DNA of 64,000 nt, from positions 1 through 64,000 of the IMG/VR virus record IMGVR_UViG_3300042197_003319. One strand, given 5' to 3'. Below, one piece after another: positions 39,106 to 64,000 of this stretch. The notes beneath the pieces are model-generated. The model was not told the DNA's origin. It searched no databases and worked only from the letters and a program-made list of their open reading frames with translations. The DNA comes from a virus. Numbering within the stretch: position 1 is the first letter of the stretch; every line of letters starts with the position of its first letter. The translations under genes were made by a program, and so were the position numbers.

Positions 39106-41328
39106 ATGATTACCACTACTGACAGGCCGACGCCAACAGTCGTCGGTGCCAAGTCGGAGGTCGGTTTCACCATCGACCCCCGCAACCTTGCCCACGTTGT
39201 CAGTCTGTTGCGCGACGCTTACTCCGACCCGATCACTGCGGTGCTTCGCGAGTATTCCGTCAACGCGGCCGACGCGCACGTCGAGGCGGGTATTCCCAAC
39301 AAGCCGATCAGGGTCACCCTGCCCGGCAGGTTGGAGCCGGTGCTCAAGATCCGCGACTTCGGTCGTGGCCTTACGCCGGAACAGATCGAGAGTTTGTTCT
39401 GCTCGTATGGCGCTTCCAGCAAGCGCACCAGCAACGACTACACCGGTTGCCTTGGCATCGGCTGCAAATCGGCCTTTGCCATCACCGACTCCTTCACCGT
39501 CACCACCTTCCACGGTGGCCGGGCAAGGTCGTACAGTTGCTTTCTTGACGAGAGCGAAGTCGGCAAGGCCGTCCTGCTGAGCGACAAGCCCAGCAACGAG
39601 ACGGGCGTGCTGGTCAGTATCCCGGTCAAGAAGGACGACATCGGCACGGTTGAGAACAAGGCCATTGAGGTATACAAGTACTTCAAGATCCGGCCTGAGT
39701 TCGAAAACCTCGGCAACTCCCGCCTGCAGGAGATCACCCGACCCGCGTATCTTTACCGGACAGACGGCGTTGGTCTTCGCAACGGCAATTCCTGGCGCAA
39801 CGACGACAGCAACATTGTGATGGGCAACATTGCCTATCCGATCAAGATTGACGAGTTGGGCCACGATAAGATCCAGGAAATCCTTAACTACACCGCGTTT
39901 GACATCGAAGTCCCCATCGGTGCGGTCGACATCGCTCCGTCCCGTGAGGAACTCAAGTACAACGCCAGGACCAAGAAAGCCGTGCTCGAGGCGGTCAAGG
40001 ACGCGTTCAAGCGTATCGGCAAGAGCGCGGCCGACGACATTGCCAAAAGCAACGACCTGTTTTCGGCCATCAAGATCTTCAAGGCCTGCTTCCAGCGCCA
40101 CAAGCTGGACGGCTACCTTCGCGGTCTTGGCCACAAGCCGGTCTACAAAGGCAAGGAGCTGACGTCCTGCGACATCAAGCTCTACGACAAGGAAGAGGAA
40201 GCCAAGCAACACGGCTTTGCCGTTCGTCGCCTGGTCAAGCTCAACACTATTCGGCGTGGTAAGTCCTATCAGTTCAGTGAGACCAACACCATGGAGATCG
40301 GCCTGGATGACAAGCTGTATCACGACACCTCATCCAACCAGATGGAGTTCTACGGCAGGGTCCGGACGTTGTTGTCCGATCCCCACTTCAGGTCCGCGTA
40401 CGTGTTCAAGACACGCAACGGGGGCATGGATTATCTCCGCAACAAGCAACCCTTGTTGAACGAGATGACGTTCGATGACTTTACAGCCATCGATATCACA
40501 CCTCCGGAGAAAACGGACACAAACGTCCGTGGTCCGATCAACAACGCCAAGCACTCGATGCAGGTCTTCAAGCTCAAGCCTGACGACAAGCTCAGCGAGT
40601 GGCAAAGGCATCAGTCCGAGCATTGGCTTCCAGCCAGCATCGATCTTAAGAACGACAGCGGCGTGTATTTCGCCATTGATCGTTTCCAGATCACCACGGA
40701 ATCCAACTCGCGGGACGTCAGCGATTACGTGGAGAGGATCAAGCTTCTTCGGAGGTTCGGCTACAAAGGCGAGCTATACGGCTTCAAGCCTGCTGTGGTC
40801 GAACGGCTGAAGAAATCCAAAAGCACCAATTGGGTCCTGTTTCACGATAAATTCCGAGAGCTCTGGGAAGCCAGGGTTGCTCCTTATCGCGAAGCCATGG
40901 ACAACCACTTGAATTACCTGATGCACATCAACGATCGCAATGGCGATCGGGAAATCATTGATGTCCTTCACAAGGAAACCTTTGCCGAAGGAACCGTGGC
41001 TTCCATGTACAAAGACGCGTTGGATCGATGTGTCGCCAATCCACCAGGCGTGGATCTGGCCAAGGAAGCCAAGTTGATCGACGGCAACATGTGGTTGTTG
41101 CCCAAGCTCAAGCCGACCATTGACCTGGACGGCCTGTGCAAGCTGTTCGATGAGCGGTACCCGATGGTCATGTTTTGGTCTCTTGATGGCGGCAGCTACG
41201 AATCTGCCACCATAAAGGCCAGAAATACCCGGAACTCCAAGTTGTTGGCCGACTACTTGAAGTTGGTCGATGCCAATGACGCAGTCATTTCAACCTCAAC
41301 AACAAAAAGAAAGGATAAAGGTGAGTAA
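39106..41328 (+). CDS. rIIA: RIIA-like protein with N-terminal GHKL ATPase domain
   Basis: A 740-residue protein. The Bergerat ATP-binding fold is clear: N-box LREYSVNAADAH (about 47-58), G1 IRDFGRGL (82-89) and G2 GCLGIGCKSAF (114-124), followed by a transducer-like region and a long C-terminal domain. T4 rIIA-type proteins protect an infecting phage against exclusion or abortive systems and sit on the membrane. It overlaps rIIB by 8 bp, so both are made together. Exact function in this phage is inferred. Confidence 0.85.
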   Translation: MITTTDRPTPTVVGAKSEVGFTIDPRNLAHVVSLLRDAYSDPITAVLREYSVNAADAHVEAGIPNKPIRVTLPGRLEPVLKIRDFGRGLTPEQIESLFCSYGASSKRTSNDYTGCLGIGCKSAFAITDSFTVTTFHGGRARSYSCFLDESEVGKAVLLSDKPSNETGVLVSIPVKKDDIGTVENKAIEVYKYFKIRPEFENLGNSRLQEITRPAYLYRTDGVGLRNGNSWRNDDSNIVMGNIAYPIKIDELGHDKIQEILNYTAFDIEVPIGAVDIAPSREELKYNARTKKAVLEAVKDAFKRIGKSAADDIAKSNDLFSAIKIFKACFQRHKLDGYLRGLGHKPVYKGKELTSCDIKLYDKEEEAKQHGFAVRRLVKLNTIRRGKSYQFSETNTMEIGLDDKLYHDTSSNQMEFYGRVRTLLSDPHFRSAYVFKTRNGGMDYLRNKQPLLNEMTFDDFTAIDITPPEKTDTNVRGPINNAKHSMQVFKLKPDDKLSEWQRHQSEHWLPASIDLKNDSGVYFAIDRFQITTESNSRDVSDYVERIKLLRRFGYKGELYGFKPAVVERLKKSKSTNWVLFHDKFRELWEARVAPYREAMDNHLNYLMHINDRNGDREIIDVLHKETFAEGTVASMYKDALDRCVANPPGVDLAKEAKLIDGNMWLLPKLKPTIDLDGLCKLFDERYPMVMFWSLDGGSYESATIKARNTRNSKLLADYLKLVDANDAVISTSTTKRKDKGE

Positions 41329-46873: not shown

Positions 46874-47007
46874 TCCTGGCCTTTAAGCTCTTGCTGATTC
46901 TTCCCGTTTTTCTTTTTAAACTTTCAATACTTTTAGCCGCTTACCCAATCGCCAGGCATTACCCCAAGCTTTTCCTTTGGCTCCAAGCCAAATGTCGTTT
47001 CTGTTAA
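46861..47007 (+). CDS. Very small membrane protein
   Basis: 48 residues (MAQIILAFKLLLILPVFLFK...) with one long hydrophobic helix and a basic, Cys-ending tail. Its stop overlaps the end of the giant minus-strand gene by 4 bp, a convergent arrangement with no visible terminator between. Possibly a membrane peptide of the lysis or exclusion class. Confidence 0.45.
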   Translation: MAQIILAFKLLLILPVFLFKLSILLAAYPIARHYPKLFLWLQAKCRFC

Positions 47008-50000
47008 TCCACGTTCCTCGGCCCAAGCTCCCGCTTCAGCTGCCTTTTATCCGAAGCCTCCTGCCATAACTCGTATTTGTTTAGCACCAGAAGATCAGCG
47101 CTCTTGTTGGCTCTGCTTGTTAGGCGGGTGATCTCGTTTTGAACATCGCCAGAAGTGCGCTCAGGCAGTTCTTTAAGCCACTCCGGGTCCCTCAACGTTT
47201 CCCTAAGAACCTTCGCCCTTTCCATAACCCAATCATCCCTCTGCTCTTCGTTTAGCAGCACCCCCCTCACCCTTACTTGTCTTTCCGGCAGGGTCACCCA
47301 AGCCCTCTTCTTGGCCAGCTCAATCCAAAGAGGGTCGGGGTTATCCCGATAGCGCATAACAATATCCCCATAGTTGAAGAACGCCTGCTTGGCCCTATCC
47401 CATCCGTCCTTAGGCAGTTCTGATCCGTCGCTCAGCATGGGCTCTCCCAATACGTTGGTCATAGGGTGGTTAAAGTTGCGGAGGAAAGGGATGTTCCCGA
47501 TCCCAGCCGCCATAATGGATGAGTAATTGTCGGTCTTTTCGGGGAAGATTTTCCGGTCAGCTTCCCGCAGCAGGTTCCCAAACAGCATAGACCCACCCGT
47601 CCGCATCAGGAAGGCAACCGCTTTTTTGTCCCAGCTTCCGCTGTCCAGGTTGCCAAGGTCGGCCAGGGTTTTCACACCGCTTAAGAACGGAACGTCAACG
47701 ATGCCAAAGAGCATCGACTTTAATCCGGCCAGTGAGAACTGCATGGCCAGCTCCCCAGCCTTTGCCTGGTTGGGCTTCTCGTACTTTGAATAGTCGCGCA
47801 TGTACCCCAGCGATTTAAACAAGAGGAAGGTCGGCAGCCAGTTCGGGTTCTTGAACCACATATTCCCCACCTTGATGCTTTCCGGTTGCCATTTTCCGCT
47901 GTCGATCAAAGCCTGCCTGAACGCAGGATCCGAAGGACCCTTGCCGGAAAAGTCCAGGAACCTTTCTTTTTCGTCATCGTCTCCGTCAATTGTCCTGGCG
48001 ATAATCGCAGTCAATCCCGCCAGCATTATCCCTAAACCTGCAATCCCCCCGCCTAGTTCCATTGCCCGCATGTCGCTGGGCTTCTGCCTGGTCCCCTCTC
48101 CCCACACCTTGATCGTAGGGTTCATGCTCTTGAGTATTCCTGTCCCCATCCAGGACAGCCATGTCTGGTAAACCGAAGTCACAATCCCGTAAAAAGGCTG
48201 GACCAGTTTCGCGATCAGGTAATCGTTGGACCATCCCTCCAAGGTCTTCGCGAGGAAACCCGTGACTCCCATCGGCTTGTTGGTGTAAGCCAGCACAGAG
48301 CCCAGGAAAAACGCCTCGTCAGTCACAGCCCCGACCATTCTGTCGATGGTCTTCCTTTCAGCTTCGCTCGCCCTGTTCCAGACACGGTTCCAATAGGGGT
48401 TCGCCAATCCACGATTCCTTCTGGCCGACAGGTAAAGCTGTTGCCGGAACTCAAGTGTCCCAGGCTTGAGCCTTTCCACCCGCTCCTCAGACGCTTCCCG
48501 CTCTAGTTTCCGCACGATCTCCGGGCCTTCCAAGCCCTCCGGCAATCTCTCGTTTGTCCCGGCAATCTGTCTTGCGGTCCTGAGCATGCTGCCCAAGTCA
48601 GAAGACAACAGGCCCTGGGCATCAGGAACATCCCGGTCAGGGTAATTTTCAGCGAGCTCCCTCGAAACATCGGAAGCCGCAAGAGCTGCCGCAAGTTCGC
48701 TGTAGAAAGTTGTCGTGGCCAAATCCAGGGAGTTGTAGAGCCTCGAGATCAGAATCCCAAGACCTGTGGGGCTCACCTGGATTGCCGCTGAGTCTCCGTA
48801 TTCGGGTGACCTAATCGTTCCGGCGCCAACCTTCTTTAACCCTACCCGAACAAGCTTAAATGTTTTGTCCCAGGCGCTCTTGGATATCGGGATTTGAGGC
48901 CAGATTCCACGCTTGTTCCACCCAAACCAAAGCTCAGCAAGCTTGGCCACGCCCCTGCCGAACGAAGAGTTTGCGTTGATCCGAACACCACCCTCACCAA
49001 GAAGCTCGGGCAAGGGACGACCGGATACCCTGGTCGATAAGGTTTTTCCTGGAGCAAGGGTTTTACCTGAGCTGTCCCCGGTTGCCAGCAGGTCAATGGC
49101 TTCCACCAGGGCGTTGTTGATCGCTCTTGGGATGGCCTTCATGGCGACCCTGACAGACGACATGTTCTTGTCCCTGGCAACCCTCACCCCAAGCATAGCC
49201 CCGAGGTTCAGCGCGTTGCCGATTGGTGACAGAAGGTTGACCGTGATGGTCTTAACCCCTTGCAAAATATTCGTGTAGAACTGGCCGACAAAAGCCTCGA
49301 GAACCGTGACCCCGGAATCCTTCTTGATGGCGTCCAGGATGTCCATGGTCTTGCGGCCGGCCCTTCTGGAGTCAGGACCGTCAGGATCGTTGGCGATTTC
49401 GTTGGCTAGTTTCTCAATCGTCTTCTTGGTCTGCTCGCTCGGCATCCAGTTCTCGTCGTCGAGCTTTAGCTTCTTGGCCACATATCCGTAGATCACCTGC
49501 TCGGTAAGGTTCCCAGCCAAAGCAGCCTTCACGACGTTATGCAGGTTGTCCCGAATGGCCCTTGTCGCCCGGTTCTCGCTCTTCCCGAACACAAGTTGAA
49601 TGGATCGCTGGATCTCGGTTTGGGCGATCTTTTCCATTTCGTCCGAGATCTTGGACAGAACCCGCCCAAGCACGTCCTCCTTAACCTCGATTCCGCTGGC
49701 CTTAAGCTCGGCCACCAGGTCGGCCAGAACCTCTGCTTTCCTGGCCGTCAAAAGATACCTGCGGTTAAAGACAAACTCCTTGAAGTTGAAGCTTGGGAGG
49801 GTCATGTACGACCTGACGTCCGCCGTGGTGAACGGTTCGTCCATGGCCTGCTGCATGGCCTCGACAATCAATTGGTAAGAGCCTTCGTCCACCGAGTCTT
49901 TGAGGCTGTCGTAGATCATTTGAACCGCAGTCTGCAGGGATTCCCAGTTGTTCATGGCCTCGCGGAACCTGCGGACAGACTGAAGTTTCCTTTGCTCCTG

Positions 50001-53000
50001 GCTCATCTTGCTGCGGGTCAGCTTGAGCTGTCCGTTACCCTGGAGCTGAACCCTTTCGCGAAGGATTCTGCGGATGATCCCCACGGCGGTTTCTTTGGGG
50101 GCCTTGTTTTCCGCGTCTTTTGCGTCCAGGGCCCTTTCAAAATTCTCAAGAAACCCATCCAGGACGTTCTCGATAATCTTTCGGCTGGCTTTGTTAACGT
50201 CTTTGACTGGGCTTCCGGTTCCCGAGACCTGCTCGTCTGCCTCGTCAGACATCATAGTGGTTCCGAAACGGTTCCAGAGGTGATTGTTGATCTCGTTTGT
50301 CGTCGCTTGGGCTGACTCATCAAGCACGTCCTGGGCCTCTTCGATGTTTTCCAGAACTTCCCCTTCGGAAACACCAAGCTCTTTGGCCACTTCTTTGGCG
50401 GAGGCTGTGCCTTTCTGCAAGAGCGCAGCGGTTCCCTCGGCAACCGTGGCCGACATTTGCCGTCTTGTCTCAGCCGAATCCTCGGTCTTCTTGAGCAGTT
50501 CGACCATTTCCTTGGCCGTCTTGATCTGCTGGTCGAGCACGTCGGAAAGCGTGTTTGTGCTCATCCTCTGCCACTCCGAGGAGATGCTGGCAATTCTCTT
50601 GGCCTTTAACAAAAGCTGCGCCCAGATGGCGTTGTTCGCTGTTGATTCGATCAGCCCGCCAAGCTTGGAAACTTCTTCTTTCCCAAACACTTTCTCCAAG
50701 GCGCTGTTGATGGCCTGGTCGCCAGCCATCTTGGCTTTGGCGATGTCGTCCGCAAACAACCCGACCTGGCGGAGCCTTTCGACCTGCTTGGCGTTTGTCG
50801 CAAACCACATCCAGCCAGCCACTCCGATCCTTGAATAAGCCCCAAAAGCCCTAAGCCCTTGGGCAAGGGATGTCCCGAGGTCGGCTTGTTTTCTTGCCAG
50901 AGCAAACTGCATGGCCCGTATTTCGTTTGCCCTTTCCGGGTTTTCCTTTGCTGCTTTTTCCAACTGCTGGATAAGGATTGAGTTAAGGATAACGATGTTG
51001 TCAAAGTGCCTGGTGCTTCCGTCGCGGATGGCCTGAAGCTCTTCGTCGTTAACGCTAAGATCGGGGCTAAGGATTGCCCTGGTTGCCTGCTCTGCCCCAC
51101 CGACACGGTTGATCAGGGCCAACATTTCCTCTGCCCGCAAGGGCTGGGTCCTTACCGAGTACTTAAACTCACCCAGAGCTGTCGCGCTTCTGAGTTCGTT
51201 GCCAAGTCGTTCATCCCTGGCCAGCTGCCCGGCAAACACCTGGCGACGTTCTTTGCCTTCCCGCTTCTTAAAGTATTTCATGCCCCTGGCTTCCCGCTCT
51301 CCCTGTTCCCCACGGTATGGGCTTCCGGTTCCAGCCACATCGTCGTTGCGGATTACAAACTTAATCGTTCCGGCTTTCTCCTGTTTCTCAAGCTCACGGA
51401 CCAAAAGCCCAAATTCAGATCTCTGCCACACACGTCCGTTAAAAGGATATTTAGCGACAATCATTTGAGAGGCTACGTTTCCTCGAGCCCCTTCCCTTGA
51501 AACGTTTAGTGTCGTAAACCCAATAGCTCCTTTGTCTATCAAGTCCCAGGTAAACCTAAATTTCGGTCTGGCTCTCCTGGCTTTGGCCTCACTTCCAGTT
51601 ACCGGAGGTTCCGGATGAACCGTTTCTTTCGTGGAAAGCTTGTCCCGTTTGTTGATCTCAAAGGATGTTTTTGCGTTACGGCCAATTTCCGAGTACTCAA
51701 GCTTTTGGGAATTGGTCTTGTCCACCTTGTAAAGGTCCAGGGAATTAAGCTCGTGGTAGCCAGGTATTTTTGGGACCCCCTCAAAATAGAGCACGGTCCT
51801 GGGCTGGATGACGATCTTCGTCCCTTTTGTGACACCAGTTGCGTCCCCGTAGTCTTCGTGGGAATACATGTTCACATAGCGGTTGTTCTCATCCAAAAGG
51901 CTTTCGGGTGTTAGACTAACTTCTGTCAATACTCCGCCACGATTGGTCGAAATGCTTATGCCCGAGGTGGCAATCACATGGTCCAAGGGGGTCAACTTTA
52001 ACCTGTCGGAATGCTCAAACCGCTCAAACAAGAACCGCTCCAACTCTTCCGCCGACATTCCGTTGTTGTTGTCGATGATGGTGTAGCGGTTGTTCACCTT
52101 GTCTACAGTCACACTGACCTTGGTTTTCGCATTTCCGGCTTTGAACGCCTGCTGAATCAGCTCCGTAAGTCCGTTAACCAGGTCGTAGTCCTTGGCCTGG
52201 CCGATAGCATTCTCCACCAGGGTTTTATTTACCAACAGAGGAACCTTAACCCTGCCCGGAGCATCTTCCCCGTCATAGTAAAGCGATCCGGTTCCGGCAA
52301 CTTCTCCGTTGCGGCTTACAAGTTGAACCCCAGTCGGAGCCCTGTCCTTATACAGCATCTGCGGGTAGGTTACGTGTGAACGCTCCTTGATGATCTTAAG
52401 CGCAAGATCCATCAGGTTATTTGTCCTTGGCGATTCCGGTATCTTAATCACGTCACCTGGTTTCGGCTGGTAATCCGTCGGAAGGTTATTGTGTTTGGCC
52501 ACTTCCTCCCTGGTCAGTCCGTACTTTGTCGCAATCTCAAGCAGAGTCAGTTGTTCCGGAGCCTCGAAGAACGGAGGCACTTCCACGCTCTTGGTAGTTC
52601 CGGGAATCAGCAATTGAGAACCGACAATAACTTTACCCATCGTCAGGTTGTTTGCTTTCTTGAGGTCCTGGACGCTAACACCGTTTTTGGCCGCGATATC
52701 AGCGAGCACTTCATCTGAAGTCCGCTTGCGGCCTTCCGGCACAACATATTCAGTTGCCTCTACCGGGACATCCATTTGGGGGGACTTGCCCGCGAACAGC
52801 ATGTTTTCGGTCACGCTTCTCATGGGGCCGGTTGCGCTGATCTTTTTGCTGCGATTCACAACCGACATGCTCTTTGGCGTGTTCCGTAATAGGGCAAGCT
52901 GCTGGATTTTCTCCAAGCCCTGCTTGTTAAACTCACCCTTGCGATAGGTGACCCAACCAAACATCATCCCCACCTTGACAATGTCCTGGTCGTTTATCGA

Positions 53001-56000
53001 AGCGCCTGCCTCAAACCTTCCCGCGAGGTATGCCTCGGCTTCCCGCTTTACGACATAATCAAAACTGGAATTGGTGGCTCTACCCTGCTCAATGGCTTCC
53101 ATCAAAAGGTCGATGCGCTGTTTCCGCAGCGCTTTCCTGACTTCGATTTGCGACTGCGCGACATTGTCGGGCCTTTCCGTTTTCTCGATGTCCACCTTCT
53201 TGGTTCTGGTGGCGATGTCTTTGCCGTACCACTTGCCTTTGTAGTAAATGTCGCCCTGCTCGCCCAGTTTCTGAATCGCAATCATCACCGCTTCGTCGGC
53301 GTTCCTGGCCCGGATATAGATCTTCTTTGACCTTGAGTTGACAGCACCGATGCTTCCGGTCGAGCGGTTGATCTTTGCCGCAGCGGAAGCCATCGACATC
53401 ACCATGGCCTCGCCTCTCGGCCCACCCCGCTTGTTCGGCTTGCCGGCGATCTCTTTAAGGAGTCTTTTGGCGTTTATGTCGGCGATTTCCGGGTGAAGTT
53501 GGAACTCCCACATGGAGTTGCCCCGTTCGTCAACCATAGGCTCGGACTTAATGATCGGCGTTCCGGCTGGCTTCATCCCAATTATGGTTGCCGGCTTGAG
53601 CGACTGAGTTTCCTTTTCGCTCTTGAACTCCACCCTCCGAATCGCGGAAAGATCCGGCTCAACGGGAAGTGTGACCATCAGGGTGGGGGAATCCGTCCCC
53701 TGGTCGCGGGTGATGGTTACGGCTTTCTTGGTCGTGTAATAAGCCGAAGCCGCGTATTCAGCGTGCAGACTCGGCACATAGGAACCGTCGGTAAATATCG
53801 GGATCTTGAAATTCCCCGAAACGTTTTTGTCGGAGTTATACTTAAGGATCATCCCGACCCCACCGTAAGACACCGGCAACTGCCACTCTCCGCTTTCCGC
53901 CTTGGACCACCCTTTCTCTTTGGTTTCCTGGTAAAGGATTTCCGCAGATATCTTCTTATCCTCGACGTTTGCCAGGCCAAGATAGTTTGCCGGGAATGTC
54001 CACTCGATTGTCTTTTTGTAGACCGGGGCCCCCTGACCAAACTTCGGGACCATGCCGCGACGCTTGAGCTCCGCCACAATCGCCGGTGGCAGATTGTTAA
54101 GTTCCTGTTCTGTTACAAGGACACCTTCCTGGGAGTCATCGACTTTGATTTGGCTTACGTATTCGGTCTTCAGCATTCTGTCGAATACGTCCTGGACCTC
54201 AGCTTTTTCAGCGAGGATTTTCTGCCGTGCAGCCTGTAGTTCTGAACGTTTTTTGAAAGCCAAAGCTGCTCTTGGGTTGTTCTCTTCTCCCATCTGCAAC
54301 TCGGACAATATCTCCTGGTTAATCAAAAGAATTTTTTGATCCTGCTTTCGGATGTCTTCTTCAATATTTTTTAAGTGGACACGATATTCGTTAACCCTCT
54401 TTGGGATGCTTGGGGTTAAGACCGCGGAGCGAATCGACTTTTGGTCGATCAACTTCATGGTCATCTGCAGACGTCGTCTGGCGGCTTTGTCGAGAGGTGC
54501 CGGAGGAAGCTCCTGTTTCGCTTTTTTAGAAACCCATTTTTTAAGACCAGCGTCCCAATCGGCATCCGCACCGGTGATCTCCGGGATTGAAACGTTGGTC
54601 GTCAGCCACTGCTCGTAAGCCGCCACTGCTTTCTCGGCAAGCTCCCTGGCTTCCTTTGTCTTCTCTTGGTCGCCGATGGCGTTTAGAAACCGCAGGATTT
54701 CCTTGGTATGTTTGTTGGTTTCTACAAGTTTTTTGACGGCCTCGTCTTCGTAGGACAATATTCTTGAGTTGGTTTTTGTGACCTCGATTGCCTTTCGGAA
54801 AGGCCCAAACAGCACATTGACAACCGGGTCCTGCAGGGCTTTTGTCTGAACCATCGGCTCCGAAAGCTTTTTGATTTCCTGCATGAAGTCCCGCAATTCC
54901 TTACGGGTTTTCGCAAGCTCGATTGTTTCTTCGAGCCACTGCTCATCCTTGGCAATTGTTTCCAGAACTTTCTTGAACCGGAAATAGTTTTCCATGCCGG
55001 CAGCTTCCAGGGCGGCAAGCAACCTGTTGTATTCCCACCGCGACTTGAATCCCCTCTGTTCCAGCACTTCGTCCGTGATCTCCGGCGAATCGAATACTTC
55101 CAGGTTTGCCAGGTTGGGCCCGTACTTCTCTTGCTGGTCGGTGGTTATTTGAAAACCTTGAGCGCCCATGTACAGGCCGTGTTGAGTGGACAAATAGGCG
55201 TATTTTCCTGCGTAATCCTCCGTTAGGATTTCTTCGGCCGCGGAATCAACATCCATGCCGTCGTAAAACTCTTCGTCGTCAAGCCCGGTATTAGGGTTAT
55301 TGTAGTTCGAAGAAGCGTAATCGGTTTCTTCTTCGTAAACTTCCTCGCCAAAATAGTACACGGGTTTCTGAATAGATTGGCGATCGCGCTCAAGCGTTTT
55401 CCGAACCACCTCCCATTTTATTTCGGCAATTTGTCTACGTATCTCCTTCATCTCCAACTCGATCTGTTCGCGTGTCCTTGGCGTTCCTGTTCCCGATACC
55501 CATTCCTTGGACTCAAGGTCTTGATTTGGTTTTTGCGCTTCCTTAACCCTAAAGGTCACCGCTTCCATTGCTTTTTGGATGGGTGACACGGAAAACATAT
55601 CTTCCGCATTCCCCTGACGCGAGTTGTCGGAAAGAGCCGCTGCCAGCTCGTCCATCATCACATTAAACAAGGTGGCTGATTTCGCTGTATACTTTGTCTT
55701 TCCGTTTTCCAATTTTGTGGTCGGCCCGATTTTCTCGGACATGAAATCGACCAGGGCCCTGAACTCTGGGTTTGCATCGATCTCTGGGAACTTGTTGGTG
55801 GCTGTGCCCTTTTCGTCAAGCAGGTCCATGACGTTGGAACTTGAAGCCAGCTCTTTGATTGCCGCGTACGGGCTCATGTTTCTGGCTTTTTGGGAGAGCA
55901 TTTGATTCATCAACCTGCTGAAGAAAGCCTTGTACTGGGCGCTTTCTTTTTCCCCAAGAACTTCCGACGATGCGACACACTGGGCCATGGACAAATAGAG

Positions 56001-59000
56001 GTTTTTGGCGTTGCCCTGGTCCATCACTTCCCTGACCATTTCTGTTGCCGGGGTTGTGCTTTTGGGGGCATTCAGATGTCGGTCCATCGGCTGCAAAAAC
56101 TCACGTAGGATCATGTACTGCAGGTATTCGACCGGCTGAGAACCTGCCGCGCTGCTCAGCAAGGCGGCTCTAGAATCCCTGTCGATGACGTTTTCTTCGA
56201 CGAGTTGTTTGATAAATGTCTGAGCCCCCTCCCTAGTCAGGTTGTGGAGATCGACGGCAAGAGACCTTAGCTTTTTGCGCTTGGTCTCTGATTTGGCCAC
56301 AGCGTCATAATCCTGGTCAGCTTTTTGCAAATGGGTCAGTTCCGACCCACCTTCAGCGTTCATCACCTTAACCAGGTAATCCAGTCTTTCGGAACCCTCC
56401 TGGGTTGAGGTGTCAACCTGCTCCGTCATTACCCGATAAAGGAAATACCCTCCAGTTTCGAGGTCGGCTGGTATTTCTCCCCCCATTCTGGCCGTCATGT
56501 CTTTCGCAAGATCCAGCATTGCAGACACGTTTTCGGGAGACTTGGCAAACTGATACCCGAGAACTTGCTCCCGTGCATTGCCTCCGACCACCATCCATTC
56601 GCCTACCGCCTTATCAAAAATAAGGGTGGGAAGCCCTTGGTTGGGCGAACCGGCCCCCTCGTTTACGATCTGCTGCGGGTCAAAACCTGGGCCTTGGATT
56701 TTTAGAATCTTTTCCTTTTCTGCCGGGTCATAAGAATAATTCCTGGTATTGCGACCGGTGTATCTTGAGTTTGCCCCAAAGAATTTTTCTGAACCCATGT
56801 GGGAGGCCTGAACCTTTGACCTTTTGACCCAGGCGTAAACAAAAGGATGCCTTTGACCAGAAGCGTCTCGCACCTTTTGCTCTGGCCCAAAATCTACGAT
56901 ATCTCCTGGGTTTCTCTTTTTAAGCGTGGTGGCATGCGTAATTGTTCTTGTGACGCTGGACAAGTCCACCGGCTCTGCGGTTACAGCTGAGCCACCTTCC
57001 CTGAGCGTAACCTTCGGTCCCTCCTCCGTGGAAACAAGTTTGAGCAGGCTGGTTATTGACTCGTTGTTTTTCGGGGGTGCGTTAGGACCATATTTTTCAA
57101 GGTGGAAAAGGATGTTGTCCGTTGCGTCCAGGACAGACCCAAGGAATGGGCTGTCTTTTACGGTGATGCCCAGACGGCCAAGGATATCAAACACCGCCTG
57201 CCGCAATGCCTTGAACCACATCGCCAGGTATCCGTCTTTGGGAACCCCTTTGAGGAGCTGTCTCAGGCTTTCTTCGTCTGCCTCGGATGGGCGGATAAAG
57301 TCCTCCGTCGTGTAACCAAGTCTGGCTTTTTGCAGGACGAATCTGATGTATTCAATGGTTGCCGATTTGTCATCAAGCTCCCTGCCGTACCTTTTTCTTA
57401 GGAGCTCCAATGCTTCCGGGGATATCTCTTCAAAAGCCTTTTGGGTCAGGTAGTTCATTGTCCTGGAGTAAGCTTCCTGGGCGGTTAGTTCTCCAGACCT
57501 AATCTGCCTGTCATACAACTGAACAGCCACGGTTCTGACCACCGCGTAAGTTGCGTTGTGCGCCATCTCTTCGCTTGCTGTGCTCAGAAGATATCCTCTT
57601 CCCGCTTCGCCAACCCTGCCCCGCATGTTGAGGGAAATCCTGTCCCTGTTGTTGAGGAGGACTTCCGGCTTGATGTATACCGTGTTGAAGTCCGGTGACG
57701 AAATACTTACCCAAGCCGCCATGTCTCCCCTGTCCCCAAAGATAATTTTTACGTTCTTGAACTTCAGGTCCGAAAGGGCTTTTGCGAATTCGTCGACAAC
57801 ATCCTGCTGGTAAGGTGACAAGCTGGAAAATCTTTCGTCAACAAGCTGACCGTTTCTAAGAACAGTTGCCTGCCTTCGGACTTCGCCCTGCAGGTCTTTT
57901 GCGTAGACTTTTCCGTCGCCAGTTTCCTTCGGTATCTGGGGGCGACCATCAACATAAGTCGACCCTTGAAAAGGAAGGGTGGGTTGGTTGCTGTCGCCTT
58001 GTTGCAGAACACCCTGGGTGGCGGCAAGAACACCCTGCTTGCTTTCCCGTCTGCGGATTCTCTCAAGGTCCGTCCAAATGTCCGAGGCAACCAGTTCTTT
58101 GATAACCGGCTCCGACATGGAAGAAAGCCGGTAGCCTGCGCGCTTTAGGATCTGATCGTGCTTGTCGGCAGCCTCGTTCGGAGTCGCGATATAAACAACT
58201 CTTGGTGCTGTTCCCGTCTGGTCGTCCAACGATAGCCCGGCTCCACCCTTCATCGGGGTAACAAGAGCCACACGTTTTAGGCCTACCTGGAAGTCATTGA
58301 TGTCGGAGGTCATTTGAGCTCCGCCTTCCCCGTAAATGACAGCCGGCTGGAGTCCTTCTTTGCGGAACATGTCGTTCAGCATCTCCAGCATGGACGGGGT
58401 TTTGCCGAAGTTTATCTCCGGGAAGGAGATCTCGTTGACGAATTCCCCGAAGATAACAACCTGCTTGCCTTGCCGCAGATCCTGCATGGCCATTTCGAAA
58501 ATGTACGGAGCCTTGTTAACTTCGGCCCAGGCTTCCGTCTTGAACTTCAACACGCCCTCAAGCTCGAGCGTTTTACGCTGTTGCTCGACCGTTGGGATCA
58601 CCGAAGGGTCGCCGGTCAGCTCGGAAATTTGTCTGCGGTAATAACCCTCGATCTGTTCGATCTGAGCCTTGATTTGCGGACCGGCGTTAAGCTCAACCCT
58701 CGATGTCTGAACGTTGATCCCTTCCGGCACTCTCCGGATGTAGGCCCCAACGGTTGCAGCCGACTCAACAAGGTTGGCGATGGTCTCCTCTTTGTTCTTG
58801 GAGATTTCCAACATCGAGCGAACGGTTGTCTCTGATTTGCCGAGAATTCCCGGCAGGAAATAGAGAGCACCCGAAAGGCGGTCGGCGGGAGTTGCCGTAA
58901 GGAAAATCTTAAATGCCTTGGTCTGCCTCGCCATCTGGTTACGGATGGCGGTGGTGTTCTTGAGGTTCTGGGCTTCGTCGAACAGGATTACGTCCGCAGA

Positions 59001-62000
59001 CTCAATGTCCTTAATGGAGTTCTTGGAATAAGCATCGTACGTGTAAAAGAACACGCGGTTCTTCGGGATGTTGGCCGAGGCCAACTGGCTTTTTAGGCCG
59101 CCCGTGGAAGCGTTGATTAGCTCGTTGCTTTCCGTGATAACGATGACTTTCCCGTACGGCTCGTTGCGCGCAGCAGCTTTCATGTCTGCGATCACACGGG
59201 CAGCCGCCTGCCCCGACCTGGTCTTCCCCAGGCCTGCGTCGTCCGCCAACAGTGCCGCCTCCCGCCCAACCTTGTAGGCGTTCACAATCAGGTTGGCCGC
59301 TTCCCTTTGGTGCGGAAGCATCAGGTAACGGTTCGGGACCACGTTTGGGACAGCCGGGTTTGCGTCCGAGATAACCTTCAATGCCGGCTCTTTGATGCCA
59401 ACCCCCGGCTGCTTGGACGCAAGGATTGCCTGCATGAGCTGGATCGCTTTGTTTGCCGCCCCCTGTCTTGGGGACATATCAAGCTGGTCCTGGATTTCGG
59501 CGACCTCGACGTTGGTCAGGAAGCCCGACTCGTACAGCTCTTCCAGCAAATCCCTGGCCAGAGCCTGCGATTCCCGGTCAAAGGCGGTGAGCTGTGGCTT
59601 ACCTTTCGTTTCCGAAAGAACCCTGAATGTCTTTTGCGGACCCTGGATTATCTCGGGCAGCTGCCCGGTTTTTTGGTAAGCTTCAAGGTCTTTGTTGTAT
59701 TTTTCTTTTACAAAAGCCACCATCCCGTCGATCATTTTTGGAAGGCTCTTGGCCAGCTCTCCGGTGCTCGTCTTGTACCCCATCGAGTTAAGAACACCTG
59801 CTATCTCTGATAGCTTTGTGGTGTTCTTCGCAAACTCTTTCGGGTCTTGGTTTTTCCTTGAGGCTTCGTTAAGCGCAGCCCCGAGCAGGTACTTCTGGCC
59901 AGGGTCCTCGACCGAGGCGAAGTATGCGTTTTTGGCGTTCTTCCGAAGATCACTGCGGACATCTTCGTCACTGGCCTGAACCGTGGGGGAGGCAATCACA
60001 TCCTCAAGCGTCTCGTCTCCTGAGTCGTCTCCCAGGCTTTTCTGGAGACTTACGGCGGACTCTAACCCTATTTTCCCGCCAAGCCTCCGGCCAAGCTTCC
60101 TGGAGTAGTCTTCCACCACGGAACGGAAGATCCTGTTTTTCGAAATTCCAGGTACGTCCTGGGTCTGGAAGAGTTCGTTGGCTTCTTTGTCCGTTACACC
60201 GGAGGTCTTGTTTTTACGGACATCGTACTTGCGGCGCAGCTGTCTCCAGTAGCGCATCCGAGCCGCGTTGGCCAAACGGGTTTCGTCAACGGTGAGGTTG
60301 GGGTTATCGAGCTTGAACTTTGAGGCCTTTTCCCGGAATGCCCTTTCGGCCTCGGCAAGGTTTTGGGCCTCGTCGGGGGATTCCGGTAGTTTCTCAAGAG
60401 CAGCCAGATAGTCCGTGGACTCTTCGCTAAAAGAAATTTCGTTGCTGACCCTAGACCCCGGTTGCGAGACCTTGGGTAAACGTCTTACCGGCTCAGGCCG
60501 GTTTTGCTGCAGCCTTCCGTACCTTGCGTTCAGATCGGAAAGCGCCGTGGAGACGTTTACCGGCAGATCCACTTCTGCCTCCTCCGGAGGAGGCGTTCCT
60601 TTGGCGAGCTCCTTGGCTCTGTCGACCATCGGCCCTTTCGGCTTTTGCCACAATACCGCAATGGTGTTTTTGACCTCTCGGACAAAAGCGGCTTGGAGCT
60701 CTTCGTCGTCCGGCCATACCAGGTCGGCCTGCTTTAGGATCGGGATGATCTTGTCCGCAAATTCGGCGTAGGATAAGTCGGACGGAAATAGTTTGTCCCC
60801 GTCCTTGATTCGTCCGGCCTCAAGAAATTCCGGGCGCAGCTTGTTGAGATAGTATTCGGCGGAGTAATCCACACTCCTCTGCAGCTTGGGGTCGAGCTTG
60901 GGCGTGCCGGTACCGCTGAAACCCTTAAAGAGAAATTGTTGGGTTAGTTTGTTTTCGGGGACAAGGGTTGTGTAAGGTTTCTCATCCCCTGCCCGCTTGA
61001 AGTCCATCTCAAGTTGCGGGTCGACCGGAACCGTAGCCTGTGTGTCAGGGTCAACTTGTTTGCCGACGGGGAGTTCCTGGTCCACCGCCAAAGGTTTGTC
61101 GACAGTCGCCTGGGTGTCTGGCGTTCTAACTTTTCCGGCAGGGAGTTCCTGGTCCACCGCCAATGGCTGGTCGACAGTCGCCTTGGTGTCGACTTTGGCC
61201 GGACGTCCTGGCCTTGAGAAGTTAAGCTCGTCCGGAAGTCTCCCAGTCCCAGCGATCTCTTCCCCTTCTACTTGAGGAGTGACTGGCGCTTGACCTTGTT
61301 CAGCAGCCCCTGGCTGCACGTTTTCCCCAGGAGCGACTTCTTCTGGGGTTGTGGTTGCGGCTTCTTCTTTTTGTGTCGTTGATGGTTGCCCACTGGTTGT
61401 TCCCTCCGTTGGCATCAAAGAGCCAAGATCAAACGGCTCGTCTGTTTTTAAAATGTCCTCATCCGGCCTCTCGTATTCCGTCATCGGTTTGAGGGATTCG
61501 GCCACTTCCTGCTCAAGCCCGACTTCGGCCTGGGCCTGTGAGGTCAAAGGAGCGTTGGAAATCTCAGGTATATTCCCCGATCCTCTCCTCCTCAGCCTAA
61601 GCCCCAAGGCGTTGACGACTGCGCTGACCAAAACTCCGGAAGTTCCCCCAACCTTTGCCGACTGCAGGAGGTCTTCGGTTAACTCTTGGTTGGGGTTGTA
61701 TCCAATCTTCTCAAAGAAGTTCGAGGCCCATGTCTGGAAAGCTTCCTGGGAAAATTCTTCTGCCCCTTCCTTCGCCACCTCTTTCATGTAACCAATAAAA
61801 CCCCTTGAGAACTGACCTCCGGTGGAATCGTCCAGCTTGTCCACCCATTTGGCCATGGGGATCGCTTCGCTGGTTCCGAAAAGGGCGTTTAGCGCAGAGT
61901 ACTTCAGGGCCTGCTCGTCGCTTGCGCCCTCTGAGAGCGCTTTGGAAACAGACTGTCCCCCGGAAATTGTCGACCCGGTTATCATCGTTGTTTGGGTCCC

Positions 62001-62729
62001 AGTCAGGCCGAGTGTTCTTCCGGCAGGACCCGCAAGCAACATCCCGGAACTTTGCCCGACCGCCCCGGCAACCTGACCCGGCAAGGACTCCTGGGTTTCC
62101 TGGCTTACCGGGAAAGTACCCTCGACGTTTTGCTCGTATTTTCTGGCGAGCTGGTAACCCAGGGTTGACTCGACCGGGTAAGGTTTGCCCTGCGTGACAT
62201 AACCAAGCCCGCTGGTTAAAGCTCCGTAGGCGTCAGCAGCCCCTGAGATGTTGGAATAAAAACCCCGCATAAGAGCGTTCGGAAGTTCACCCGCCTTCCA
62301 GGATTCCGGCTCTTGCGGCTTCTCAAAGGACTGAAGTTCGAGCCTTGCGTCCTGGGGAAGGATTTCAGCGGATACCGGTTCCGTCTCCGTAATACCCTGG
62401 AGGTCTTCCTGTAACAGGTCTGCCAGGGACTTCTCTTGCTGGAGTTTGGGCTTAGGGAGAAACGGTGCGTCCAACTCGGTCGACGCCATTTCGATGGGGG
62501 ATGGCGGGTTGGAAAACATGGCGACCTGCTTGTTGTCACCGGCCACAAGGGTTTTGTTGAACTCGCCAAGCACCTGGTCGTTTTCAGACGTATCCGGCTC
62601 GGCCTTAAGAAACTCTACAAACTTTTTCTGTTCTTCCGTGAGCTCTATTTCCGGCTCCGGGTTGTCTACCTGCCCCTTATCGCCGGCCAGAAGTTCGGCC
62701 AGCGTCTTGTTCGGATCGAGAGGGTTCAC
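47004..62729 (-). CDS. Giant polyvalent virion protein with helicase, ParB/DdrB-like, LysM and GHKL modules
   Basis: One uninterrupted frame of 5,241 residues, GTG start overlapping the upstream stop. Approximate layout: disordered N-terminus (1-600); SF2/SNF2-like helicase about 1110-1540 (GLGKT 1166-1170, DEAQ 1251-1254, HDQILKRAGYR about 1524); a degenerate metallopeptidase-like SEEMAHN about 1719; a ParB/DdrB-like segment about 2010-2100 (WMVVGGNAREQVLG); long coiled coils; two LysM-like repeats about 3330-3430; a GHKL ATPase-like module about 3510-3610 (DNNNGM); C-terminal membrane segments near 4850-4915. Six GTG[STR] motifs at 494, 606, 2413, 3479, 3800 and 4170 punctuate it. Best read as a polyvalent protein packaged in the virion and ejected first, protecting and processing incoming DNA. 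Confidence 0.8.
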   Translation of the reverse strand: MNPLDPNKTLAELLAGDKGQVDNPEPEIELTEEQKKFVEFLKAEPDTSENDQVLGEFNKTLVAGDNKQVAMFSNPPSPIEMASTELDAPFLPKPKLQQEKSLADLLQEDLQGITETEPVSAEILPQDARLELQSFEKPQEPESWKAGELPNALMRGFYSNISGAADAYGALTSGLGYVTQGKPYPVESTLGYQLARKYEQNVEGTFPVSQETQESLPGQVAGAVGQSSGMLLAGPAGRTLGLTGTQTTMITGSTISGGQSVSKALSEGASDEQALKYSALNALFGTSEAIPMAKWVDKLDDSTGGQFSRGFIGYMKEVAKEGAEEFSQEAFQTWASNFFEKIGYNPNQELTEDLLQSAKVGGTSGVLVSAVVNALGLRLRRRGSGNIPEISNAPLTSQAQAEVGLEQEVAESLKPMTEYERPDEDILKTDEPFDLGSLMPTEGTTSGQPSTTQKEEAATTTPEEVAPGENVQPGAAEQGQAPVTPQVEGEEIAGTGRLPDELNFSRPGRPAKVDTKATVDQPLAVDQELPAGKVRTPDTQATVDKPLAVDQELPVGKQVDPDTQATVPVDPQLEMDFKRAGDEKPYTTLVPENKLTQQFLFKGFSGTGTPKLDPKLQRSVDYSAEYYLNKLRPEFLEAGRIKDGDKLFPSDLSYAEFADKIIPILKQADLVWPDDEELQAAFVREVKNTIAVLWQKPKGPMVDRAKELAKGTPPPEEAEVDLPVNVSTALSDLNARYGRLQQNRPEPVRRLPKVSQPGSRVSNEISFSEESTDYLAALEKLPESPDEAQNLAEAERAFREKASKFKLDNPNLTVDETRLANAARMRYWRQLRRKYDVRKNKTSGVTDKEANELFQTQDVPGISKNRIFRSVVEDYSRKLGRRLGGKIGLESAVSLQKSLGDDSGDETLEDVIASPTVQASDEDVRSDLRKNAKNAYFASVEDPGQKYLLGAALNEASRKNQDPKEFAKNTTKLSEIAGVLNSMGYKTSTGELAKSLPKMIDGMVAFVKEKYNKDLEAYQKTGQLPEIIQGPQKTFRVLSETKGKPQLTAFDRESQALARDLLEELYESGFLTNVEVAEIQDQLDMSPRQGAANKAIQLMQAILASKQPGVGIKEPALKVISDANPAVPNVVPNRYLMLPHQREAANLIVNAYKVGREAALLADDAGLGKTRSGQAAARVIADMKAAARNEPYGKVIVITESNELINASTGGLKSQLASANIPKNRVFFYTYDAYSKNSIKDIESADVILFDEAQNLKNTTAIRNQMARQTKAFKIFLTATPADRLSGALYFLPGILGKSETTVRSMLEISKNKEETIANLVESAATVGAYIRRVPEGINVQTSRVELNAGPQIKAQIEQIEGYYRRQISELTGDPSVIPTVEQQRKTLELEGVLKFKTEAWAEVNKAPYIFEMAMQDLRQGKQVVIFGEFVNEISFPEINFGKTPSMLEMLNDMFRKEGLQPAVIYGEGGAQMTSDINDFQVGLKRVALVTPMKGGAGLSLDDQTGTAPRVVYIATPNEAADKHDQILKRAGYRLSSMSEPVIKELVASDIWTDLERIRRRESKQGVLAATQGVLQQGDSNQPTLPFQGSTYVDGRPQIPKETGDGKVYAKDLQGEVRRQATVLRNGQLVDERFSSLSPYQQDVVDEFAKALSDLKFKNVKIIFGDRGDMAAWVSISSPDFNTVYIKPEVLLNNRDRISLNMRGRVGEAGRGYLLSTASEEMAHNATYAVVRTVAVQLYDRQIRSGELTAQEAYSRTMNYLTQKAFEEISPEALELLRKRYGRELDDKSATIEYIRFVLQKARLGYTTEDFIRPSEADEESLRQLLKGVPKDGYLAMWFKALRQAVFDILGRLGITVKDSPFLGSVLDATDNILFHLEKYGPNAPPKNNESITSLLKLVSTEEGPKVTLREGGSAVTAEPVDLSSVTRTITHATTLKKRNPGDIVDFGPEQKVRDASGQRHPFVYAWVKRSKVQASHMGSEKFFGANSRYTGRNTRNYSYDPAEKEKILKIQGPGFDPQQIVNEGAGSPNQGLPTLIFDKAVGEWMVVGGNAREQVLGYQFAKSPENVSAMLDLAKDMTARMGGEIPADLETGGYFLYRVMTEQVDTSTQEGSERLDYLVKVMNAEGGSELTHLQKADQDYDAVAKSETKRKKLRSLAVDLHNLTREGAQTFIKQLVEENVIDRDSRAALLSSAAGSQPVEYLQYMILREFLQPMDRHLNAPKSTTPATEMVREVMDQGNAKNLYLSMAQCVASSEVLGEKESAQYKAFFSRLMNQMLSQKARNMSPYAAIKELASSSNVMDLLDEKGTATNKFPEIDANPEFRALVDFMSEKIGPTTKLENGKTKYTAKSATLFNVMMDELAAALSDNSRQGNAEDMFSVSPIQKAMEAVTFRVKEAQKPNQDLESKEWVSGTGTPRTREQIELEMKEIRRQIAEIKWEVVRKTLERDRQSIQKPVYYFGEEVYEEETDYASSNYNNPNTGLDDEEFYDGMDVDSAAEEILTEDYAGKYAYLSTQHGLYMGAQGFQITTDQQEKYGPNLANLEVFDSPEITDEVLEQRGFKSRWEYNRLLAALEAAGMENYFRFKKVLETIAKDEQWLEETIELAKTRKELRDFMQEIKKLSEPMVQTKALQDPVVNVLFGPFRKAIEVTKTNSRILSYEDEAVKKLVETNKHTKEILRFLNAIGDQEKTKEARELAEKAVAAYEQWLTTNVSIPEITGADADWDAGLKKWVSKKAKQELPPAPLDKAARRRLQMTMKLIDQKSIRSAVLTPSIPKRVNEYRVHLKNIEEDIRKQDQKILLINQEILSELQMGEENNPRAALAFKKRSELQAARQKILAEKAEVQDVFDRMLKTEYVSQIKVDDSQEGVLVTEQELNNLPPAIVAELKRRGMVPKFGQGAPVYKKTIEWTFPANYLGLANVEDKKISAEILYQETKEKGWSKAESGEWQLPVSYGGVGMILKYNSDKNVSGNFKIPIFTDGSYVPSLHAEYAASAYYTTKKAVTITRDQGTDSPTLMVTLPVEPDLSAIRRVEFKSEKETQSLKPATIIGMKPAGTPIIKSEPMVDERGNSMWEFQLHPEIADINAKRLLKEIAGKPNKRGGPRGEAMVMSMASAAAKINRSTGSIGAVNSRSKKIYIRARNADEAVMIAIQKLGEQGDIYYKGKWYGKDIATRTKKVDIEKTERPDNVAQSQIEVRKALRKQRIDLLMEAIEQGRATNSSFDYVVKREAEAYLAGRFEAGASINDQDIVKVGMMFGWVTYRKGEFNKQGLEKIQQLALLRNTPKSMSVVNRSKKISATGPMRSVTENMLFAGKSPQMDVPVEATEYVVPEGRKRTSDEVLADIAAKNGVSVQDLKKANNLTMGKVIVGSQLLIPGTTKSVEVPPFFEAPEQLTLLEIATKYGLTREEVAKHNNLPTDYQPKPGDVIKIPESPRTNNLMDLALKIIKERSHVTYPQMLYKDRAPTGVQLVSRNGEVAGTGSLYYDGEDAPGRVKVPLLVNKTLVENAIGQAKDYDLVNGLTELIQQAFKAGNAKTKVSVTVDKVNNRYTIIDNNNGMSAEELERFLFERFEHSDRLKLTPLDHVIATSGISISTNRGGVLTEVSLTPESLLDENNRYVNMYSHEDYGDATGVTKGTKIVIQPRTVLYFEGVPKIPGYHELNSLDLYKVDKTNSQKLEYSEIGRNAKTSFEINKRDKLSTKETVHPEPPVTGSEAKARRARPKFRFTWDLIDKGAIGFTTLNVSREGARGNVASQMIVAKYPFNGRVWQRSEFGLLVRELEKQEKAGTIKFVIRNDDVAGTGSPYRGEQGEREARGMKYFKKREGKERRQVFAGQLARDERLGNELRSATALGEFKYSVRTQPLRAEEMLALINRVGGAEQATRAILSPDLSVNDEELQAIRDGSTRHFDNIVILNSILIQQLEKAAKENPERANEIRAMQFALARKQADLGTSLAQGLRAFGAYSRIGVAGWMWFATNAKQVERLRQVGLFADDIAKAKMAGDQAINSALEKVFGKEEVSKLGGLIESTANNAIWAQLLLKAKRIASISSEWQRMSTNTLSDVLDQQIKTAKEMVELLKKTEDSAETRRQMSATVAEGTAALLQKGTASAKEVAKELGVSEGEVLENIEEAQDVLDESAQATTNEINNHLWNRFGTTMMSDEADEQVSGTGSPVKDVNKASRKIIENVLDGFLENFERALDAKDAENKAPKETAVGIIRRILRERVQLQGNGQLKLTRSKMSQEQRKLQSVRRFREAMNNWESLQTAVQMIYDSLKDSVDEGSYQLIVEAMQQAMDEPFTTADVRSYMTLPSFNFKEFVFNRRYLLTARKAEVLADLVAELKASGIEVKEDVLGRVLSKISDEMEKIAQTEIQRSIQLVFGKSENRATRAIRDNLHNVVKAALAGNLTEQVIYGYVAKKLKLDDENWMPSEQTKKTIEKLANEIANDPDGPDSRRAGRKTMDILDAIKKDSGVTVLEAFVGQFYTNILQGVKTITVNLLSPIGNALNLGAMLGVRVARDKNMSSVRVAMKAIPRAINNALVEAIDLLATGDSSGKTLAPGKTLSTRVSGRPLPELLGEGGVRINANSSFGRGVAKLAELWFGWNKRGIWPQIPISKSAWDKTFKLVRVGLKKVGAGTIRSPEYGDSAAIQVSPTGLGILISRLYNSLDLATTTFYSELAAALAASDVSRELAENYPDRDVPDAQGLLSSDLGSMLRTARQIAGTNERLPEGLEGPEIVRKLEREASEERVERLKPGTLEFRQQLYLSARRNRGLANPYWNRVWNRASEAERKTIDRMVGAVTDEAFFLGSVLAYTNKPMGVTGFLAKTLEGWSNDYLIAKLVQPFYGIVTSVYQTWLSWMGTGILKSMNPTIKVWGEGTRQKPSDMRAMELGGGIAGLGIMLAGLTAIIARTIDGDDDEKERFLDFSGKGPSDPAFRQALIDSGKWQPESIKVGNMWFKNPNWLPTFLLFKSLGYMRDYSKYEKPNQAKAGELAMQFSLAGLKSMLFGIVDVPFLSGVKTLADLGNLDSGSWDKKAVAFLMRTGGSMLFGNLLREADRKIFPEKTDNYSSIMAAGIGNIPFLRNFNHPMTNVLGEPMLSDGSELPKDGWDRAKQAFFNYGDIVMRYRDNPDPLWIELAKKRAWVTLPERQVRVRGVLLNEEQRDDWVMERAKVLRETLRDPEWLKELPERTSGDVQNEITRLTSRANKSADLLVLNKYELWQEASDKRQLKRELGPRNVD

Positions 62730-63811
62730 CGGGGTTTACCGGTGTTAATCGAAAAGTCTTTGATATTAAGCAAAGACCCGTTGTACGAGATGGCGTCAGA
62801 GTATTGCGCCTGAGTCATCTGTCTGGTGCGGACCTGAGTCTCACCCGGAAGGGTATAGTTTACCGTGTAGGTAATCTCCCCGTCTTTCGGTAGAGTCGAG
62901 CTTTCCATCATCCTCAAAGCGTCTTCGTTTGAAAAAGCTCCTCTTTGGGCTTGGTTTCTCTTCGCCACCGATTCCAGATACTGCATCTTAAACTTCTCGG
63001 CATTCGCCTGCGCGTTCTCGTAAAGCTTTTGGTTGCCGCTTTGAGCCGCTTGGGCGGCCACTTTTTGATATTCAATCCACTGGGTTTTTGCGGCGTCAAC
63101 CTGGTCGTCCAGAGCCTTAAACTCCTGGGTTAGTTTTTTGTCGCGGTTAGTCTGGCTCAACTTTGCCATCTCAACCGTCATGTCCATTTGCTTGGCCATG
63201 TATGTCGGGTTTGAGCTGAGAGATTTTTTAGCAGCATATTGAGCCGAATCCGTTAAAGCCTTTGCGTGCTCAGCACCAAGTTGAGAGATGGGAATGCCAG
63301 CCTGAAGAAGTGCCCGAGCTTCGTCTGCGTACCCACGCTGAATCGGGTCAGCCCCAAGGGTCAGGGAGTATTCGGTAAGATTATTGATGTCTTGCAGACG
63401 GTTCTTTTGCCCGGCTGACGCTGACAAATAGTTGGCTTTCTGAATCCTAAAAGCTTCACGCTGGGCGTTGTTAAACCTTCCGATTGACTCCGGGTCTACC
63501 CCTTCGATCTGTACGTCCTGGTATGTTGCTGATTTAAGCCCCTCGTAGTCTTCGTTGATTGCAGCTGTTTGAAGCTTTTCAAACTGACTCTGGGCTCCGG
63601 TGGACCCGAGAGCAGTTGCCCTTTCCAAATCCATCGTGCGTTTGGTGTTTTGGATGGCAAGGCTCCGCATTTCCTGTTCCTGCTCAAAGGCTCTTTGGCG
63701 AAGACTAAGCTCTTGCTGGGCACGACCCTCACGCATGCCCATAAGGACATCGCTAAACGCTGTTTGGATAGCGTTGCCAGCCTGAATTCCAAATGCTTCG
63801 TATCCCGCCAT
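62726..63811 (-). CDS. Internal virion / ejection-like protein
   Basis: A 361-residue, Gln/Ala/Lys-rich, almost wholly helical protein (RAQQELSLRQRAFEQEQEMR and QKLYENAQANAEKFKMQYLE) with a beta-rich last 60 residues. Location directly upstream of the giant polyvalent gene (GTGA overlap) and composition fit podoviral internal proteins that line the portal and exit before DNA. No family motif recognised. Confidence 0.6.
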   Translation of the reverse strand: MAGYEAFGIQAGNAIQTAFSDVLMGMREGRAQQELSLRQRAFEQEQEMRSLAIQNTKRTMDLERATALGSTGAQSQFEKLQTAAINEDYEGLKSATYQDVQIEGVDPESIGRFNNAQREAFRIQKANYLSASAGQKNRLQDINNLTEYSLTLGADPIQRGYADEARALLQAGIPISQLGAEHAKALTDSAQYAAKKSLSSNPTYMAKQMDMTVEMAKLSQTNRDKKLTQEFKALDDQVDAAKTQWIEYQKVAAQAAQSGNQKLYENAQANAEKFKMQYLESVAKRNQAQRGAFSNEDALRMMESSTLPKDGEITYTVNYTLPGETQVRTRQMTQAQYSDAISYNGSLLNIKDFSINTGKPR

Positions 63812-63815
63812 AACC

Positions 63816-63998
63816 TTAACCGATTGATCTCACGTTTGTCCGGTCAAAGAGCGAAGCCATATAGTAGTCGCTAAGTCCTCCGTACCCACCACGGTTCTGG
63901 TAGGCCGCGCTTAAACCTCCGAAACCAGCAGTAGCTCCCCCAAGCCCCTGGAAAATTCCAGCCATCCCCATCCCCTTTGCGCCACCATAAGAACCCAT
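63816..63998 (-). CDS. Gly-rich virion protein, possibly incomplete at window edge
   Basis: An open frame of 60 residues from an ATG at 63998, two bases from the window edge, so the true start may lie outside. Very Gly-rich (MGSYGGAKGMGMAGIFQGLG, then GGATAGFGGLSAAYQNRGGY), as in membrane-active ejection proteins. It ends 4 bp before the next gene's start. Confidence 0.5.
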   Translation of the reverse strand: MGSYGGAKGMGMAGIFQGLGGATAGFGGLSAAYQNRGGYGGLSDYYMASLFDRTNVRSIG

Positions 63999-64000
63999 CA

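Follow-up and report, generated by a model that had tools for sequence, protein, structure and literature searches.

The minus strand of the window (the whole 64,000-nucleotide stretch analysed here, positions 1 to 64,000 of IMG/VR record IMGVR_UViG_3300042197_003319) is open for 5,241 codons at 47,004-62,729, encoding a giant protein of the polyvalent type (5241 aa) whose gene comes last in the structural cluster. The 75,237-bp record is a podovirus-like phage genome and is apparently circular, since by gene order the window's first gene continues the cluster found at the far end. The cluster runs through terminase, portal, scaffold, major capsid protein, adaptor and tail genes -- some of these names having been assigned by order and size, not by strong family matches -- to a 316-aa Gly-rich protein, then a 361-aa protein, and then the giant. 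The 361-aa gene lies at 62,726-63,811 and the Gly-rich gene at 63,816-64,000, continuing beyond the window, both on the minus strand. The Gly-rich protein is conserved in 13 relatives and, judged by eye, is a possible gp14-like ejection protein. The giant follows the structural genes in G000, G001, G002 and their relatives; this placement and the precedent of T7 and P22 make its packaging and its ejection into the host probable. The podovirus ejection proteins (T7 gp14/15/16; P22 gp7/16/20) have the same position after the structural genes, with a small gp14-like neighbour whose counterpart here would be the Gly-rich protein. The window giant is, however, much larger than any of these, and no description of their multi-site processing was found; possible cleavage of P22 gp20 by the host is mentioned in a review (PMC8954989).

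Several other genes of this genome deserve mention. Within the structural cluster, a PD-(D/E)XK nuclease (PF11645, E 1e-17; 5,800-6,204) and a CHAP-domain protein (6,201-6,881) are both conserved in 13 relatives, the latter being a likely exported lysin with a signal sequence. A virion-cluster gene at 11,016-12,290 varies greatly in what it contains and in how long it is: its product, possibly a decoration protein, has 424 aa here and 1,025 aa in G001, where it is repeat-rich. There is a RIIA-like gene at 39,106-41,328, and the same genome has an integrase gene at 18,093-19,394. The 422-aa helicase encoded at 20,730-21,998, conserved across clades, is partly like the helicase region of the giant (27% over 207 aa).

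Six motif copies and the pieces between them

A preliminary description had reported a short GTG[S/T/R] motif at six places in the giant, and all six copies are present, at residues 494, 606, 2413, 3479, 3800 and 4170. With their flanks they read, on the minus strand, AGTGRL (residues 493-498; 61,236-61,253), SGTGTP (605-610; 60,900-60,917), SGTGTP again (2412-2417; 55,479-55,496), AGTGSL (3478-3483; 52,281-52,298), AGTGSP (3799-3804; 51,318-51,335) and SGTGSP (4169-4174; 50,208-50,225), the last two having, as was originally reported, 15 bases in common (GGAACCGGAAGCCCA). A seventh GTG, at residue 4862 (WMGTGILK), lacks these flanks and lies inside a conserved hydrophobic stretch, and was therefore excluded from the set. 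[AS]GTG is found 6 times in the giant versus 0.23-0.31 expected, a count reached by 0 of 2,000 shuffles; these were global or within 20- or 40-residue blocks, and together they rule out chance or composition as the source of the motifs. GTG alone occurs 7 times, where 1.5-1.8 would be expected. With no preset pattern, BLOSUM self-matching of 6-mers also ranks the GTG motif first in the giant (5 partners, against a shuffle maximum of 3), and among all ORFs of at least 60 aa in the 75,237-bp record, [VIFL][ASG]GTG is confined to this protein.

Cutting after each GTG -- the exact bond is an assumption, on which the masses below depend -- would yield seven pieces, all encoded on the minus strand. 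Piece 1 (residues 1-496, 52.8 kDa; 61,242-62,729) matches phrog_10691 over part of its length, and piece 2 (497-608, 12.3 kDa; 60,906-61,241) is absent from the relative L005. Piece 3 (609-2415, 200.7 kDa; 55,485-60,905) holds a ResIII/SNF2-like helicase domain at 58,884-59,321 (PF04851, E 1.9e-8; phrog_62, E 6.6e-17). Piece 4 (2416-3481, 120.4 kDa; 52,287-55,484) has LysM repeats near its end, in two stretches, at 52,602-52,712 (PF01476, E 1.3e-12) and near 52,437-52,559. Piece 5 (3482-3802, 35.9 kDa; 51,324-52,286) is weakly GHKL ATPase-like, piece 6 (3803-4172, 40.8 kDa; 50,214-51,323) is well conserved in clade A, to which the window belongs, and piece 7 (4173-5241, 119.5 kDa, pI 9.3; 47,007-50,213) is the C-terminal piece common to all relatives. 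The domains first proposed between the motifs were recovered in part. The helicase does lie between copies 2 and 3, but no domain was detected for the ParB-like region placed beside it (a ddrB-ParB domain is strong, E 1e-37, in the distant relative L130); the GHKL-like stretch is present between copies 4 and 5, but the match to PF02518 (E 1.5e-4) is below the Pfam gathering score.

An AlphaFold2 model of residues 3290-4400, from three-sequence input, was poor (pLDDT 44), and one of residues 4172-5241 reached pLDDT 48; both are good for coil placement only. In the first, each of sites 4, 5 and 6 is placed in predicted coil that separates secondary-structure elements, site 6 lying between two helices. 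A Foldseek search with the pLDDT 48 model gave no fold match, and no PDB entry was matched by sequence.

Junctions in the relatives

Two relatives carry a giant of the window type, 43-55% identical: L002 (IMGVR_UViG_3300009068_000071, comprising the first 4,368 aa of the giant) and L005 (IMGVR_UViG_3300009160_000053, 5,127 aa). At site 1, where the window has AGTGRL, L002 has SGASVA and L005 has a deletion; the module between motifs 1 and 2 is lost in L005. Site 2 (SGTGTP) reads VGASEV in L002 and VAAGEV in L005, the latter near residue 510 and placed by eye, and site 3 (SGTGTP) is deleted in L002 and reads SSAGEV in L005. Sites 4, 5 and 6 (AGTGSL, AGTGSP and SGTGSP) are VGSSVP, SGASTP and VGASSL in L002, which keeps five of the six positions, and VGSGVV, SGSGSV and AGVGSA in L005. 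The letters are specific to each genome: GTG in the window, GAS or GSS in L002, and GSG or GVG (and AGEV) in L005, where the motifs are less uniform than in the others. All four GAS in the L002 giant are at motif sites (p 2e-7, or ~5e-4 corrected for 2,613 tripeptides), as are all three G[SV]G[SV] in L005 (p 2e-6, for a pattern chosen afterwards). Motifs resemble one another more within one genome than they do at the same site across genomes, and the true labelling scores highest among 5,184 permutations; the p of 1.9e-4 is the smallest attainable, and the prior setting of the L002 and L005 registers by eye may help the result. Thus the motifs are neither absent from the homologues nor unplaced in them, either of which would have refuted the original proposal; their positions are kept, but the letters GTG[S/T/R] are not, and change in concert instead. 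As read from these alignments, the conserved feature is a junction and not a fixed string.

Between copies, codons agree about as often as usage predicts in L002 (4 versus 5.0 expected) and in G014, a clade B genome (8 versus 9.0), and only mildly more often in the window (26 versus 18.5), so DNA repeats do not explain the motifs; DNA duplication as the source of the copies is ruled out by their synonymous variation. The likeness within each genome, taken with this synonymous variation, makes a shared recogniser acting on amino acids likely; the amino acids of the motif are under selection and are probably read in trans by something. A reading of the motifs as joints of recombination, whose likeness is maintained by exchange of DNA among modules, is accordingly very improbable. 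Modules are indeed gained and lost at the motifs, window codon agreement slightly exceeds expectation and copies 5 and 6 share their 15 bases, but the codons of L002 and G014 point to selection on the protein.

Portal searches yielded 48 related contigs. Only in G040, which over an overlap of 100 aa is 98% identical to L002, was a close form of the giant found. At the same locus the other relatives have giants of ~3,500-4,200 aa with a common C-terminal piece (residues 4750-5218 of the window protein, ~25% identity); it is this piece, and not the helicase region, that is common to the distant relatives. Clades A, B and C all have their last motif immediately before this C-terminal piece, which there spans ~1,030-1,200 aa. 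The motif set of clade B is [EIVL][LI]GAA-x-P. In G014 it takes the forms KELGAAMP, NILGAALP, DELGAAMP and DILGAAMP, at residues ~1614, 2089, 2229 and 2944, so that LGAA[ML]P occurs four times and LGAAM 3 times versus 0.003 expected; the same protein has an ART-PolyVal domain just under the cut-off (E 7e-7). L135 (DLIGAAVP, DEIGAAMP, DLLGAAMP) and G010, G019 and G009 (EVIGAAIP, DVIGAPAMP, DILGAAEVRP) match the G014 motifs at three sites, and all four lack the 475-aa module that runs from the first to the second motif of G014, one motif being kept at the join. In clade C, six genomes have [KR]PIGAQ near residues 1010-1070 and 2710-3135, two copies only, with a large indel directly after the first. 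In G000, G002, G014 and G048 the giant is essentially the only protein with the genome-specific motif, and looser patterns give a few stray matches outside the giant in G019, G010 and G001.

A more distant giant, L130 (L130:5261-12199), has DPL[TS]E[IV] at residues 4, 110, 123 and 1405. The first two copies flank a stretch that by eye is M15-peptidase-like, without a Pfam match, and the last lies ~20 residues before the homology to G019 starts, adjoining the last motif of G019. The L-x-E within this motif resembles the T4 gp21 cleavage rule. A distant SNF2 giant (L013:6617-16162) has four copies of RESR, of which three lie in variable regions; as a motif of the same kind it was not confirmed in L014. 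Searches of isolated phages by tblastn with the helicase, C-terminal and portal regions gave no match, nor did a scan of genome contigs; the only similarity found among isolated phages was a weak N-terminal one to Ruegeria phage 45A6. The 3,912-aa giant of that phage (L019:16759-28497, ANH49087.1) has GTG 8 times versus 1.9 expected, including QGTGSD and SGTGSD, which might be a further instance of the phenomenon, in a phage that has been isolated.

Known systems and the search for a protease

Polyvalent proteins are found in phages and plasmids, P1 DdrB and DarA among them; their processing has been predicted, and it is known for P1 DarA and DdrB (Iyer et al. 2017, PMC5512222). The window protein is likewise a giant multidomain phage protein in a late-gene context, and because domains described for polyvalent proteins are present -- the helicase in the window giant, ART-PolyVal and ddrB-ParB in its relatives -- the family is placed among them. 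A term search of that paper (PMC5512222) found no repeated module-border motif. An MPTase metallopeptidase is frequent in polyvalent proteins, though not universal; HExxH is absent from the three clade A giants (window, L002, L005), which speaks against an internal zincin as the processor.

A virion protease encoded elsewhere in the genome, which the first description led one to expect, was not found by Pfam scans or an S78 search. There is no Peptidase_S78 prohead protease in 12 genomes, and Pfam scans over most ORFs of G000, G014 and G038 detected no maturation protease, the only proteases seen being a non-conserved S8 subtilase and the CHAP lysin. The subtilase (E 6e-29) lies outside the window between two tail-fibre genes (G000:70499-72199, equivalent to L003:8500-10200) and is possibly a surface-degrading tail enzyme. 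It is also present in G002; its absence from the partial G001 contig and, above all, from 13 other records rules it out as the processor. Judged by eye, the major capsid protein seemingly has no propeptide. Processing may be due to a phage enzyme that has escaped recognition, to an enzyme of the host, or to an activity of the giant itself that has likewise gone unrecognised.

Short recurrent cleavage rules in packaged and ejected proteins, such as is proposed here, are known for the substrates of prohead proteases of the T4, phiKZ and SPN3US type; ejected head proteins of SPN3US, e.g. gp245, are cut after A-x-E (PMC10052503). The letters in the giant differ from these, its sites are mid-chain whereas theirs belong to an N-terminal propeptide, its motif is absent from other head proteins, and no homologous protease was found. 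Large virion proteins cut at small-residue motifs are also found in unrelated viruses: the ASFV polyprotein pp220 is cut after Gly-Gly-X to give several separate structural proteins (PMC10308890), and vaccinia P4a is cut at Ala-Gly-X (PMC4837287). The proteins too are unrelated, and the giant is not a member of either family, so the analogy is one of mechanism only; the ASFV site is read by a SUMO-like protease, while here the motif is G-[TASV]-[GAS] and the Pfam scans revealed no such enzyme.

Proposed cleavage junctions in a chain of modules

The motifs were originally suggested to be either proteolytic maturation sites or linkers joining modules. Kept positions, concerted letters and the gain and loss of modules from motif to motif fit junctions, and the failure to find a virion protease counts against cutting. 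The borders between modules, marked by the motif, evolve in concert; proteolytic junctions account for this best, and on balance we lean, from sequence comparison, to the view that the motifs are cleavage junctions of a phage polyprotein with exchangeable modules.

Were the motifs uncut flexible hinges, rigid modules could string out and pass the portal singly. The small residues in the motifs, the predicted coil at three sites between helices and strands (in a low-confidence model) and the identity around all six sites, lower than the median of the giant, would be in keeping with this; yet hinges need no fixed wording, and the wording is uniform within a genome and shifts together between genomes. 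The motif is also missing from 8 of the 10 low-identity stretches in the clade A alignment, which argues that it is not general linker composition, and hinges appear rather unlikely. It is likewise unlikely that the motifs are docking peptides, short binding sites for a common partner (a scaffold, portal core or chaperone) by which each module would be loaded. Concerted change is also what one co-evolving partner would bring about, and the L130 copy at the extreme N-terminus stands where cutting would free almost nothing, but the position at module borders and the loss of modules from motif to motif are more natural for cut sites.

On the cleavage reading, the giant gene would make a single chain of exchangeable modules that is packaged and then ejected into the host. 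Each joint would be cut by a phage or host protease among the small residues around G-[TASV]-[GAS]-x, as the head is being assembled or once the chain has been ejected; timing, exact bond and enzyme are all part of the supposition. Some seven products would be freed, among them the helicase, LysM, GHKL-like and common C-terminal pieces. If one enzyme reads all the joints, they would change together as its preference drifts, and modules could be added or dropped from joint to joint without harm to the rest. In its full form, this would be a cassette polyprotein made by a family of uncultured phages. Modules of the giant ejected chain would be exchanged from one joint to the next, and a protease of unrecognised kind, co-evolving with a junction code specific to each genome, would set them free. 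We offer that scheme tentatively, as a serious possibility that is somewhat less likely than not.

The matter bears on the passage of giant injected phage proteins through the portal and on the way in which their many domains reach different targets. With a junction code legible in the sequence, processing would become directly testable and the enzyme could be sought by co-variation, and giants that are hard to annotate would be divided into natural units suited to expression and structural studies.
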